Of a DNA stretch of 64,000 nucleotides, positions 12,276-16,337 are shown piece by piece. Location of the stretch: the NCBI RefSeq assembly GCF_040812015.1, contig NZ_JBFNXJ010000013.1:1-64000 (forward strand). The letters are read 5' to 3'. Position 1 is the stretch's first letter, and every line of letters begins with the position of its first letter. The notes under the pieces are model-generated. The model saw nothing but the letters and a program-made list of their open reading frames with translations. It was not told where the DNA came from and ran no database searches. The translations under genes were made by a program, and so were the position numbers. This DNA comes from Chitinivorax sp. PXF-14. GTDB taxonomy: Bacteria > Pseudomonadota > Gammaproteobacteria > Burkholderiales > SCOH01.

Positions 12276-14990
12276 ATGCAAGACACCCGCCCAGACCCCG
12301 ATCAACTGCTCGAGAAAGTGATGCTCGAGGAAGCCCGCCAGCACCGCGGCCGCCTGAAGATCTTCTTTGGCGGCTGTGCCGGCGTCGGCAAGACCTATGC
12401 GATGCTCAATGCCGCGCGGCAAGCCCACGCGAAGGGGCTGGACGTGGTTGTCGGCATCGTCGAGACCCATGGCCGGGCCGAGACGGCCAGGCTGCTCGAC
12501 GGCCTGGCGCGGCTGCCGCCACGGCAGGTCGATCACCGCGGCCGACAGTTGCCGGAATTCGATCTCGACGCGGCGCTCGCACGCCAGCCGCAACTGATCC
12601 TGATCGACGAGCTGGCCCACACCAACGTCGAGGGCTCGCGCCACACCAAGCGCTGGCAGGATGTCGAGGAACTGCTCGGCGCCGGCATCGATGTCTACAC
12701 CACGGTCAACGTCCAGCACCTCGAGCGGCTCAACGACATCGTCGGGCAGATCACCGGCATCCGCGTGTGGGAGACGGTGCCCGACCGCATCTTCGACGAG
12801 GCCGACGAGATCTCGCTGGTCGACCTGCCGCCCGACGAGCTGCTGCTGCGCCTCAAGGAAGGCAAGGTGTATGTGCCGCACCAGGCCGAGCGCGCGGCCA
12901 GACACTTCTTCCGCAAGGGCAACCTGATCGCGCTGCGCGAGCTGGCGCTGCGGCGCACCGCCGACCGCGTTGATGCACAGATGCGCGACTACCGGGCCGA
13001 TCAGTCGATCAGCCAGGTGTGGCAGGCCAAGGAACGGCTGCTGCTGTGCGTCGGGCCCGGCCCGGCCGGCAACACGCTGGTACGCAGCGCGGCGCGGCTC
13101 GCGGCCAGCCTCAAGGCCGACTGGATCGCCGTCTACGTCGAGACCCCCAGGCTGCAGCGGTTGTCCGACGCTCATCGCGAGCGCATTTTGCAGACGCTGA
13201 AACTGGCGCAGGAGCTCGGCGCCGAGACCGCCACGCTGGCCGGCCCAGATGTCAGCAGCGTGCTGCTCGGCTACGCCGGCAGCCGCAATGTCTCCAAGCT
13301 GGTGGTCGGCAAGAGCCAGCGCCGCTACTGGACGGCAATCGGGCGGCCATCGCTGGCCGACGAGCTGGGCCGGCACTCGATCGACGTCGATGTGTATGTC
13401 GTCGGCCATGAGCTGCCCGAGCAGCCGGCGGACGCGCGCGCCAGCACCGACACCATCAGCCTGGAATTCGAAGAGGTGGTCGAGGCGCGCAAACGCGGCT
13501 ACCTGTGGGCGCTGGCCGTGAGCGTCGCCACCACGCTGATCGCCTCCCCGCTCGCCAGCTTTCTCTACCTGCCCAACGTCGTCATGCTCTACCTGCTCGG
13601 GGTGGTGCTGGTGGCGGTGCGCTACGGCCACGGGCCGGCGGTGCTGTCGTCCTTCCTCAGCGTGGCGGCTTTCGACTTCTTTTTCGTGCCGCCGCGCCTG
13701 TCGTTTGCCGTCTCGGATACGCAATACCTGCTGACTTTCGCCGTGCTGCTGGTGGTGGCGCTGGTGATCAGCCAGCTCACCGCCAGCCTGCGCTACCAGG
13801 CGCATATCGCCACCTATCGCGAACGCCGCACCAGCGCGCTGTACAGTATGGCGCAGGCGCTCTCGGCCGCGCTCGCCACCTCGCAGATCATCGAGATCGC
13901 CAGCCGCCACCTGTGCGCCACCTTCCACGCCAAGGTGGCCGTGCTGCTGCCCGACAGCCACGAGGCGGTGCGCCAGCCGCTGCAGGAGATGAGCGCCGAG
14001 GTGCTCGAAACGACCGACCTGGGCGTGGCGCAGTGGGTCTACGACCATCAGGAGGTCGCCGGCCTCGGCACCTACACCCTGCCGGCCCACGCCGCCCGTT
14101 ACCTGCCACTGAAGGCGCCGATGCGCACGCGTGGCGTGCTCGCCATCCAGCCCGACAACCCGCGCCACATCATGTCGCCGGAGCAGCAGCGCCTGCTCGA
14201 TACCTTTGCCGCGCAGATCGCGCTGGCGCTGGAACGGGTTCATTACGTCGAGGTGGCGCAGGACGCGGTGGTGACGATGGAGGCCGAGCGCCTGCGCAAT
14301 TCGCTGCTGTCGGCCATCTCGCACGACCTGCGCACGCCGCTGACGGTGATCGTGGGCCTCGCCTCCACGCTGGCTTCCGATGCCGGCCTCAACGACGAGA
14401 CACGGCGCGAGCTGGCGACGTCGATGCAGGAAGAGGCCATGCGCATGAGCGGGCTCGTCACCAACCTGCTCGACATGGCGCGGCTGCAGGCTGGCGGCGT
14501 GCAGCTGTCGAAGCAGTGGCAGTTGCCGGAGGAAGTGATCGGCAGCGCCCTGCGTGCCAGCGAACGGCTGCTGCGCGAGCATCGGGTGACGGTCGAGGTC
14601 GCCCCCGAGGTGCCGCTGGTGTCATTCGACGCGGTGCTGGTGGAGCGCGTGTTGTGCAACCTGCTCGAGAACGCGGCCAAGTACACGCCGCCGGGCAGCA
14701 CCATCCGCATCGCGGTGCAGCCGGCCGAGCACGATGTCCACCTGGTGGTCGAGGACAACGGGCCGGGGCTGCAGGCCGGCATGGAAGAAAAGGTGTTCGA
14801 CAAGTTCACGCGCGGCGAAAAGGAGTCGGCCAAGCCCGGCGTCGGGCTTGGTCTCGCCATCTGCCGTGCCATCGTCGAGGCGCATGGCGGTAGAATCTGG
14901 GCCGATAGCCGCCCCGGCGGCGGCGCGCGCTTCACTGTCGCGCTGCCCGCCAGCGAACCCCCAGCGCTGGAAACCGCAGAGGCCAGCTGA
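12276..14990 (+). CDS. kdpD: Potassium/turgor sensor histidine kinase KdpD
   Basis: A 904-residue sensor kinase that phosphorylates KdpE under K+ limitation. The order is: N-terminal KdpD cytosolic domain with Walker A GGCAGVGKT (residues 32-40) and the Walker B-like LILIDELAHTN; a Usp-like domain (about 245-385); four closely spaced membrane helices (about 405-505); a GAF region (about 520-655); HisKA with the phospho-acceptor His683 in SAISHDLRTPLT; and an HATPase domain with NLLENAAKYTPP, DNGPGLQ and GVGLGLAICR boxes. All catalytic elements are present. It follows kdpC by 108 nt without a visible terminator and precedes kdpE by 23 nt. Confidence 0.96.
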   Translation: MQDTRPDPDQLLEKVMLEEARQHRGRLKIFFGGCAGVGKTYAMLNAARQAHAKGLDVVVGIVETHGRAETARLLDGLARLPPRQVDHRGRQLPEFDLDAALARQPQLILIDELAHTNVEGSRHTKRWQDVEELLGAGIDVYTTVNVQHLERLNDIVGQITGIRVWETVPDRIFDEADEISLVDLPPDELLLRLKEGKVYVPHQAERAARHFFRKGNLIALRELALRRTADRVDAQMRDYRADQSISQVWQAKERLLLCVGPGPAGNTLVRSAARLAASLKADWIAVYVETPRLQRLSDAHRERILQTLKLAQELGAETATLAGPDVSSVLLGYAGSRNVSKLVVGKSQRRYWTAIGRPSLADELGRHSIDVDVYVVGHELPEQPADARASTDTISLEFEEVVEARKRGYLWALAVSVATTLIASPLASFLYLPNVVMLYLLGVVLVAVRYGHGPAVLSSFLSVAAFDFFFVPPRLSFAVSDTQYLLTFAVLLVVALVISQLTASLRYQAHIATYRERRTSALYSMAQALSAALATSQIIEIASRHLCATFHAKVAVLLPDSHEAVRQPLQEMSAEVLETTDLGVAQWVYDHQEVAGLGTYTLPAHAARYLPLKAPMRTRGVLAIQPDNPRHIMSPEQQRLLDTFAAQIALALERVHYVEVAQDAVVTMEAERLRNSLLSAISHDLRTPLTVIVGLASTLASDAGLNDETRRELATSMQEEAMRMSGLVTNLLDMARLQAGGVQLSKQWQLPEEVIGSALRASERLLREHRVTVEVAPEVPLVSFDAVLVERVLCNLLENAAKYTPPGSTIRIAVQPAEHDVHLVVEDNGPGLQAGMEEKVFDKFTRGEKESAKPGVGLGLAICRAIVEAHGGRIWADSRPGGGARFTVALPASEPPALETAEAS

Positions 14991-15013: not shown

Positions 15014-15712
15014 ATGAACGATATCGCCGCCACCGTTCTCGTCATCGAGGATGAAAAGCAGATCCGCCGCTTCCTGCGCGTTACGCTGGAGGCCGCCGGC
15101 TTCGCCGTGCACGAGGCCGACAACGCGCGCCAGGGGCTGATCGAGGCCGGCACGCGGCAACCCGACCTGCTGATCGTGGACCTCGGCCTGCCCGACCGCG
15201 ACGGCGTTGATCTGATCCGCGATCTGCGCAGCTGGAGCAGCGTGCCGGTGATCGTCCTGTCAGCCCGCACGCAGGAGACGGACAAGGTCACCGCGCTCGA
15301 CGCCGGCGCCGACGACTATCTCACCAAGCCGTTTGGCAGCCCCGAGCTGCTGGCCCGCATCCGCGCCCACCTGCGCCGGCGCACCGTAACACCCGACAGC
15401 GAGCACCCCAGCGCCCGCTTTGGCGAGGTCGTCGTCGATCTGGCCAGCCGCGAGGTGACGCGCGCGGGCAGCGCGGTCCACCTGACGCCGACCGAGTTCC
15501 GGCTGCTGGCGACGCTGATCCGCCACAGCGGGAAAGTGCTCACCCACCGGCAATTACTGCGCGAGGTATGGGGGCCGAGCCATATCGAGCAACACCACTA
15601 CCTGCGCATCTATATGGGCAACCTGCGGCAGAAGCTCGAGCGCGACCCGGCGCAACCGGCGTTTCTGCTGACCGAGACCGGCGTCGGCTATCGCCTGGCA
15701 GCCGGCAACTGA
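15014..15712 (+). CDS. kdpE: Response regulator KdpE
   Basis: A 232-residue OmpR-family response regulator. The receiver domain (about 7-120) has the acidic pair in VIEDEKQ, the phospho-acceptor Asp56 in LLIVDLGLPD, and the conserved lysine in YLTKPFG. The C-terminal winged helix (about 135-230) ends with the HYLRIYMGNLRQKLE recognition region and GVGYRL. It should activate the kdp promoter, probably through the duplicated element at 7254-7308. It closes the operon; no clear T-run terminator lies directly after it, and the next terminator belongs to the small RNA downstream. Confidence 0.96.
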   Translation: MNDIAATVLVIEDEKQIRRFLRVTLEAAGFAVHEADNARQGLIEAGTRQPDLLIVDLGLPDRDGVDLIRDLRSWSSVPVIVLSARTQETDKVTALDAGADDYLTKPFGSPELLARIRAHLRRRTVTPDSEHPSARFGEVVVDLASREVTRAGSAVHLTPTEFRLLATLIRHSGKVLTHRQLLREVWGPSHIEQHHYLRIYMGNLRQKLERDPAQPAFLLTETGVGYRLAAGN

Positions 15713-15784
15713 CGCGGCCCCATGGCCAAGCCCGGCGGGCGGAGCCTGATGCGCGGCCCGCGCGGGGCGGCGCTTCCGGATTGC

Positions 15785-15798
15785 TTGATCTTGATCAA
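15785..15798 (+). promoter_or_regulatory. FNR/ANR box, perfect consensus
   Basis: TTGATCTTGATCAA is an exact TTGAT-N4-ATCAA site, the binding motif of FNR-type oxygen-sensing activators. Its centre (15791.5) is 41.5 bp before 15833, the position expected for class II activation. A TATACG -10-like element sits at 15824-15829, and no gene starts downstream on this strand, which points to a non-coding transcript. Confidence 0.8.
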
Positions 15799-15832
15799 AC
15801 CATAACCCCACACATAGTGGGACTATACGTTC

Positions 15833-15904
15833 CAGAAGGTTCTGCCTTCTGCTTGTGTATCTCCAGTGGTTAATTCGACCCGCACGTGATGCGGGTCTTT
15901 TTTT
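15833..15904 (+). ncRNA. Candidate FNR-activated small RNA, about 72 nt
   Basis: The segment folds into a 5' hairpin (CAGAAGG 15833-15839, 5-nt loop, CCTTCTG 15845-15851), then about 25 nt predicted unpaired (15852-15876), then an intrinsic terminator with a perfect 8-bp stem and seven T's. The unpaired part contains TATCTCC, complementary to a GGAGATA ribosome-binding site, as in Hfq-dependent regulators that block translation. The 5' end predicted from the FNR site coincides with the first base of the hairpin. There is no start codon with a ribosome site and no meaningful open frame. By architecture and control it is comparable to FnrS of E. coli and AniS of Neisseria; I cannot confirm sequence homology. 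Confidence 0.7.
15877..15904 (+). terminator. Intrinsic terminator of the small RNA
   Basis: GACCCGCA, loop CGTGA, TGCGGGTC, then seven T's (15898-15904). It reads out only on the plus strand, so it does not serve the minus-strand gene ending at 15921. Confidence 0.9.
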
Positions 15905-15920
15905 GCCCGGCCGCCACGGG

Positions 15921-16337
15921 CTAGCGCTCGAACCAGTGCGGGCACCAGGCATGCGGGTTGCGCCAGATGCCGCCGGGGCAATCGCCGTAGCCCTCGACGA
16001 AACGGGCACGCAAGCCGGCCTCCATGCCCTTGAGAAAGGCACGTTCGCCCTCCCCCTCGCAGACGCCAAAGTAGGCGTAGCCGAGATAGCCCTCGCGATA
16101 ACCGGTGGATTCGCTGCAATACAGCCGCAGGCCCTGAGCGTAGGCCGTGCGATAGGCTGCTTCGTCCAGCGCCACGCCGGCGCGGCGGCAGCTGTCGCGA
16201 TGCTGTTCGAGGCGCCAGCCGGGCCACCCCTCCCTCCCGTCCTTGTTGCCGATGCCGGCCGGCGCGCGGCACTCGTCGCCGTTCATGGTGGCGCAGGCGG
16301 ATAAACAAATCGTCAGCAACAGCAGCAGCTTGCGCAT
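15921..16337 (-). CDS. DUF2799-type lipoprotein
   Basis: A 138-residue secreted protein with a lipoprotein signal peptide (MRKLLLLLTICLSAC, lipid-modified cysteine about residue 15). The mature part has six or more conserved cysteines and the spaced pattern GREGW, HRDSC, GVALDEAAYRTAY, GLRLYC and GYREGYLGYAYFGVC, which fits the DUF2799 family of unknown function. It is probably anchored in the periplasm or outer membrane with disulfides. GAGGAGG precedes the ATG. The gene begins with no gap after the Mut7-C gene, so the two form one transcript. Confidence 0.75.
   Translation of the reverse strand: MRKLLLLLTICLSACATMNGDECRAPAGIGNKDGREGWPGWRLEQHRDSCRRAGVALDEAAYRTAYAQGLRLYCSESTGYREGYLGYAYFGVCEGEGERAFLKGMEAGLRARFVEGYGDCPGGIWRNPHAWCPHWFER

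Follow-up and report, generated by a model that had tools for sequence, protein, structure and literature searches.

To our knowledge, FNR-controlled small RNAs (sRNAs) have been characterized in few groups. E. coli FnrS is a trans-acting repressor, and Rfam holds a model for it. Other examples come from Neisseria, which we take to belong to the same order, Neisseriales, as the bacterium studied here. As described, N. gonorrhoeae FnrS is an FNR-activated RNA of 108 nt that begins with AUG, lies beside the bacterioferritin genes bfrA and bfrB, and consists of a 5′ stem-loop, an unstructured region, and a terminator behind an FNR site at −41.5; the site of E. coli FnrS is cited there at the same position (PMC3032703). 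Two further reports describe meningococcal AniS as Hfq-bound and induced in anoxia (PMC11912907, PMC4423775). The RNAs of RF02278, NcS27, and S17 are presented as short two-hairpin RNAs with an open, CU-rich stretch that, by prediction, masks ribosome-binding sites; the reported or predicted action of RF02278 and S17 through pairing there resembles the one proposed below (PMC5688073, PMC11722255).

Here, we describe a putative sRNA gene in a 64,000-nt stretch of the Chitinivorax sp. PXF-14 genome (the window). Its plan is common with gonococcal FnrS and AniS, set beside each other by description, and the likeness is one of layout. In contrast to gonococcal FnrS, the predicted RNA is about 72 nt long and lies beside kdpE, or yciB in relatives, in place of the bacterioferritin genes; bfrA and bfrB were not found among the scanned neighbors, which were kdpE/DUF2799, yciB, NTP_transf_6/GNAT, and NlpC/P60. 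The FNR site has the same position as that of E. coli FnrS, but the Rfam model of the latter is unmatched: it is absent from the matches of the whole window at the cut-off and from those of 15770-15915 up to E = 10. Indeed, no Rfam family reaches its cut-off anywhere in the window. Thus, the parallel to FnrS and AniS drawn in the first-pass annotation stands for the layout and stops short of Rfam membership, with AniS compared by description only. A literature search, largely without subscription papers, returned no earlier report on an sRNA of Chitinibacteraceae. Taken with the results below, the sequence comparisons support a new family of a known kind, the FNR-activated, Shine-Dalgarno-blocking sRNA, set apart from AniS and gonococcal FnrS by description.

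The locus and its parts

All parts of the putative gene lie on the forward strand. The sequence TTGATCTTGATCAA at 15785-15798 (TTGAT-CTTG-ATCAA, center 15791.5) is a perfect FNR box, and its exact form occurs once in the window. When up to two mismatches are allowed, the pattern gives 40 window matches against 12.7 expected, so the box alone is little proof. The predicted transcription start is the first base of a 5′ hairpin, 15833, which places the box center at −41.5, just as the first-pass annotation had it. A −10 element, GACTAT (15821-15826), would be weak without an activator. The consensus scan found no sigma-70 consensus match at this promoter, as is expected where a promoter needs an activator. 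A dyad between the box and the −10 element (CCCAC-ACATA-GTGGG, 15807-15821) was considered as a second operator and rejected, being unconserved in relatives.

The 5′ hairpin, CAGAAGG...CCTTCTG (CAGAAGGTTCTGCCTTCTG, 15833-15851), is predicted to fold as eight pairs with a 3-nt loop, and not as the seven pairs annotated earlier. It is followed by an open core, CTTGTGTATCTCCAGTGGTTA (15852-15872), with the anti-Shine-Dalgarno stretch TATCTCC at 15858-15864. A rho-independent terminator then spans 15877-15904, with the stem at 15877-15897 and seven U's at 15898-15904; both the anti-Shine-Dalgarno stretch and the seven-T terminator were thus where they had been annotated. The stretch is flanked on one side by kdpE (15014-15712, NCBIfam KdpE) and on the other by a DUF2799 gene on the opposite strand (15921-16337). 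Immediately upstream of the sRNA gene, kdpD (12276-14990) and kdpE stand together.

Conservation and distribution

Searching 60 relatives, we found matches in all four other members of the window's family (E ≤ 1.6e-8). Three are 90-98% identical over 40 bases covering the hairpin and core, the fourth is 81% identical over 89 bases, and each has an FNR-like box in the same position. In the alignment of the five copies of this family (f1), the box is present, and an unbroken run of 29 columns, reaching from the 3′ arm of the hairpin through the core, is identical. Across 399 genomes of the order, the 15-mer TGTATCTCCAGTGGT occurs in 15 (f1, 5/5; f5, 9; f22, 1) and the reversed pattern in three. 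Named records identify f5 as Chitinibacteraceae, and the f22 carrier is Parachitinimonas. A covariance model built from 26 transcripts, with search filters that lose some weak matches, scored 53-86 bits in 16 of the 399 genomes (f1, 5/5; f5, 10/12; f22, 1/10) and at most 30.5 bits elsewhere; no match of at least 31 bits fell outside these three groups. Fifteen of the 16 genomes supplied or equal the model sequences and were known from the 15-mer, while G296 is independent and new.

In the 15 main copies, those of the 15-mer set, the best upstream box always agrees at 8 or more of the 10 consensus positions and hardly shifts in position; the remainder of these loci reaches that score at 25 of 42,952 positions. 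The conservation in the 60 relatives and the 399 genomes, along with the near-fixed boxes, rules out a chance origin of the unit. The first-pass annotation expected box, seed, and terminator to be conserved in related species, and the covariance search bears this out, with boxes of at least 8/10 in all 27 compared copies and a covarying terminator.

We also searched a named genome collection with the pattern TCAA-N46-62-GTGTATCTCCAGTGGT. It returned 27 stretches, 23 of which are complete units; the other four, which are without box, hairpin, or terminator, are chance matches. Eighteen units are in records of Chitinibacter, Formivibrio, Deefgea, Chitinilyticum, Jeongeupia, Iodobacter, Chitiniphilus, Chitinolyticbacter, and Parachitinimonas, and the remaining five are in one MAG labeled Janthinobacterium and four MAGs with a phylum-level label only. 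NCBI taxonomy places Parachitinimonas and Chitinimonas in Chitinibacteraceae, Neisseriales, and we presume the other named carrier genera to be Chitinibacteraceae as well. Separately, a genome of a second-family genus (G378, locus L235, C1:23432-23492) has a diverged form, in which an FNR-like box, TTGATCCCGGTCAA, is followed after 34 nt by the stretch GCGTCAGCGC; the terminator is kept, and the core is altered to GTGTTCCAGTGAGC with loss of UAUCUCC.

RNA fold and comparison with RF02278

The predicted fold of the RNA 15833-15904 comprises two hairpins plus a weak helix in the middle; its energy is −24.9 kcal/mol (z = −3.1), which 1 of 200 shuffles matched. The 16-nt core GTGTATCTCCAGTGGT (15855-15870) is invariant in 26/26 aligned transcripts, which are copies found using the core or part of it. 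In the 27th copy, that of G296 found by the covariance model, GGA stands in place of the final GGT. The core has a mean unpaired probability of 0.72 in the window RNA and 0.52 over the 27 copies, and many f5 copies can form a competing small stem-loop within it (UAUC-UCCAGU-GGUA). The 5′ hairpin is replaced by a different hairpin, at the same place, in the Chitinibacteraceae-type copies and in Parachitinimonas, where the predicted pairing begins two bases later. In two f5 copies (L035, L042), the minimum-energy fold differs.

In the terminator stem, all eight pairs vary on both sides among the 26 sequences; 49 of 500 shuffles likewise give eight. Covariation is scored at 0.628, compared to 0.218 for shuffled alignments (0/500 as high) and at most 0.15 when the stem is slid, and pairing holds in 92.5% of cells. 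The U-tail is 7-9 long in 26 of the 27 copies, compatible with predicted Hfq binding; that of Parachitinimonas is interrupted. A peptide-coding role was considered and rejected, as no frame with both start and stop is common to the eight copies whose frames were listed. The frame GTG-TAT-CTC-CAG-TGG is a consequence of core identity, and its ends differ among copies.

The RNA might instead belong, in diverged form, to the "toxic" or double-hairpin sRNAs of Betaproteobacteria (RF02278; Burkholderia NcS27, Bordetella S17). Kinship of this kind, which we regard as unlikely, does have several points in its favor. RF02278 is the nearest Rfam family; UCUCC, GGUGG, and a terminator are common to both, and RF02278 members are the next-best matches of our own model, four of six such loci scanned passing the RF02278 cut-off. 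Two of these four carry an 8-of-10 FNR-like match centered 43.5-44.5 bp before the RF02278 start. However, the other two confirmed loci are without a box above 7/10, and the scores of 27.6 bits at 15858-15904 and 23.8 bits for the f5 copy L021 are both far under the cut-off of 50. Unlike RF02278, the window sRNA has one anti-Shine-Dalgarno stretch, the second CU-rich block being absent, and an FNR-type promoter.

The confirmed RF02278 toxic sRNAs are L205, L206, L209, and L210 (f43, f35, f50; 50.5-61.6 bits), with an ATTAGAT(A/G)AT-like sequence upstream; the two with the 8-of-10 match are of f35. Similar RNAs with CCTCCAAAACCTCCTCCTTTGGTGGA and a terminator occur in four f46 genomes (L201-L203, L213), and L201 and L213, both scanned, are under the RF02278 cut-off.

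Promoter geometry and the Fnr regulator

The promoter geometry comes with a built-in check: lineages vary by 6-7 nt in the length of RNA ahead of the core, and the FNR box shifts accordingly. If the RNA ahead of TGTATC is given a length of 17 nt for f5, 23 nt for the window's family, and 24 nt for Parachitinimonas, the box center is 41.5 bp from the assigned hairpin base in 21 of 27 copies, 40.5 bp in three, and 43.5-44.5 bp in three of the Iodobacter type. Hence all 27 boxes stand within 3 nt of −41.5 relative to that base, the start itself being predicted. Over the same lineages, the gap from box to TGTATC varies (50-54 in f5, 56-57 in the window's family, 58 in Parachitinimonas). Because the box keeps its distance to the 5′ end of the hairpin while hairpin length changes, the start near 15833 proposed in the annotation gains independent support. 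Column counts over the 27 copies give conserved −10 bases, A at −11 (25/27), A at −8 (21/27), and T at −7 (23/27). The box spacing and these bases are hallmarks of class II FNR activation, with 15833 as the likely start.

Performing a PF00325 search, we found a Crp/Fnr protein in 15 of the 16 carrier genomes; the draft G002 was without one. The window's genome has a single match, which scores 255.7 bits against the NCBIfam Fnr model, above the cut-off of 228. Among PDB entries, its best relatives carry annotations as FNR-type regulators. This protein and one counterpart in each of the other 14 carriers have the C-x2-C-x5-C motif, a fourth cysteine, and the ETVSR helix, a helix that reads TTGAT. 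In the f5 carriers, ten in all, PF00325 matches number 3-5 per genome. At a distance of about 5-7 kb from the sRNA, G008, G057, G177, G207, G237, G267, G296, and G352 have an additional gene of the Crp/Fnr family.

Dnr/Nnr-type regulators read nearly the same box as FNR. A trans-acting transcript could therefore be under such a regulator and respond to nitric oxide, the signal not being oxygen itself, and the several PF00325 matches of the f5 carriers, including the eight with one near the sRNA, fit such control. We nevertheless judge it improbable, since the window box is a perfect FNR consensus, and the one PF00325 match of the window's genome, in a Crp-family search made with PF00325 alone, is a four-cysteine Fnr. 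As judged from these comparisons, the sRNA element of the window is real and conserved, and it is very probably controlled by FNR.

Gene neighborhood

In f5-type records, yciB (PF04279) follows the sRNA unit in 7/7 scanned, likewise in Parachitinimonas, on the same strand and about 100-150 nt from the core. The neighborhoods of the window's family, which cover the window's genome, G002, G003, and G004, are other: kdpE/DUF2799 in the window, a nucleotidyltransferase (NTP_transf_6) and a GNAT gene in G003, and an NlpC/P60 gene in G002 and G004, which are of one genus. The promoter and terminator are retained in these differing places, so the sRNA element is, by its sequence context, a free-standing gene of its own. 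A cis-acting leader or attenuator of the adjoining yciB, as the same-strand order in the Chitinibacteraceae-type records and Parachitinimonas might suggest, is highly implausible, since the core is unchanged beside the other neighbors of the window's family (in the window, the next gene is on the opposite strand) and the RNA closes with a terminator that has a long U-tail.

Proposed function and candidate targets

The most probable reading, in which we have considerable confidence, is a free-standing, FNR-activated, trans-acting sRNA that blocks Shine-Dalgarno sites. The box, geometry, conservation, covarying terminator, Fnr gene, and neighborhoods are read from the DNA, and we infer from them transcription, FNR dependence, Hfq dependence, and repression. 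In the proposed mechanism, Fnr would bind the box at −41.5 under low oxygen and activate, in the class II manner, a promoter with a weak −10 and no −35. The gene 15833-15904 would then yield a small RNA of about 72 nt with a 5′ hairpin, an invariant and largely open core, and a terminator U-tail of the Hfq-binding kind. In several mRNAs, the core would pair with the Shine-Dalgarno region (GGAGAUAC... just ahead of AUG), block ribosomes, and thereby lower expression when oxygen is scarce.

Candidate targets came from complementarity searches beside ATG with patterns made from the core, in which the counts for reversed controls are not comparable, as these controls carry no Shine-Dalgarno sequence. 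With up to three mismatches allowed, complements of a 16-nt stretch of the core were not enriched in 10 genomes (190, versus 255 with the reversed control). The genes thiC, DUF2282 (bufA), and yceI recurred in more than one genus, with Pfam used to check their identity. We tentatively propose these three and cytochrome bd oxidase as candidate targets, on computational evidence that is mixed.

The start region of thiC in the window's genome can form a 17-bp pairing with one bulge at −26.8 kcal/mol, and none of 337 background starts is as low; among these background starts are a candidate, cydA of G267, and some gene calls of doubtful quality. The median thiC pairing is −18.1 kcal/mol in carriers (n = 15) compared to −11.5 in non-carriers (n = 25; p = 4e-5) and −12.2 for the background (p = 6e-8). 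Dropping the five carriers with pattern matches leaves 10, with p = 8e-4 against non-carriers and 3e-5 against background. These p values, like those for bufA, ignore the relatedness of the genomes, and the comparison is without G267, G378, and G017 (starts not found), G336 (a fragment), and G013 and G014 (no thiC). There are counter-cases: the carrier G296 gives −7.0, and G101, where no sRNA was found, gives −20.9. In 4/4 genomes scanned, the thiC site has a TPP riboswitch aptamer 21-81 nt ahead of it, and this riboswitch alone could constrain the site.

For bufA, 14 copies in 10 of 15 genomes pair better than background (p = 0.0015, or 0.012 once the two behind its nomination are dropped); 7 of the 14 fall outside the lowest 11% of background. 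When the flanks of the core were shuffled with UCUCC kept, 0/500 paired as well as the real core, for thiC and bufA alike. The yceI pairing reaches −28.5 in G267 and −22.3 in G004, values that none of the 337 background starts matches.

The cytochrome bd oxidase start region pairs at −19.8 in G267 (5/337, one being itself) and at −15.2 in G237 (44/337), where the pattern match (L255) was rejected as a cydA site because it lies inside an upstream frame and not before cydA. The cydA start of G003 itself shows no pairing (−8.6). This genome has a 20-nt perfect complement of its own sRNA core (L032:1496-1515, contig C8), 235-254 nt upstream of cydA and known from sequence, not as a transcribed site; it may be a target, a decoy, or a partial duplicate. 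Taking L032 as a paralogue, with a second exact core copy and TTATTC, was rejected, as it has no box and no T-run and is better read as a complement. The complement adjoins a four-codon frame whose ATG starts at its end.

A wider reading is possible, and we offer it with clear reserve. It holds that the Chitinibacteraceae line (Neisseriales) has a hitherto undescribed family of FNR-driven sRNAs, with its 16-nt core frozen while hairpin, terminator, and place have changed. This family would tie oxygen loss to thiC (behind its TPP riboswitch), bufA bufferins, yceI, and bd oxidase as an independent counterpart of FnrS/AniS. Bufferins bind metal. If this were true, one RNA would re-set thiamine, metal, and respiratory genes jointly. 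The locus adds a putative FNR-controlled sRNA family in a little-studied branch of Betaproteobacteria and offers a way to test whether Neisseriales evolved oxygen-responsive sRNAs more than once; given the frozen core and the short candidate list, the regulon is open to direct tests in cultured species.

Some further genes had similar matches. A gene for a DUF2793 protein recurs, about 95% identical in G000, G003, and G237, and rpoC recurs in four f5 genomes via an identical start region, two of them read. Both show the same pairing patterns and no obvious oxygen link, and their recurrence may reflect close kinship only. In G267, a cytochrome b gene pairs at −20.1 (3/337), and in the window's genome a sensor kinase gene (PilJ, HAMP, GAF, and HisKA_3 domains) pairs at −19.5 (5/337).
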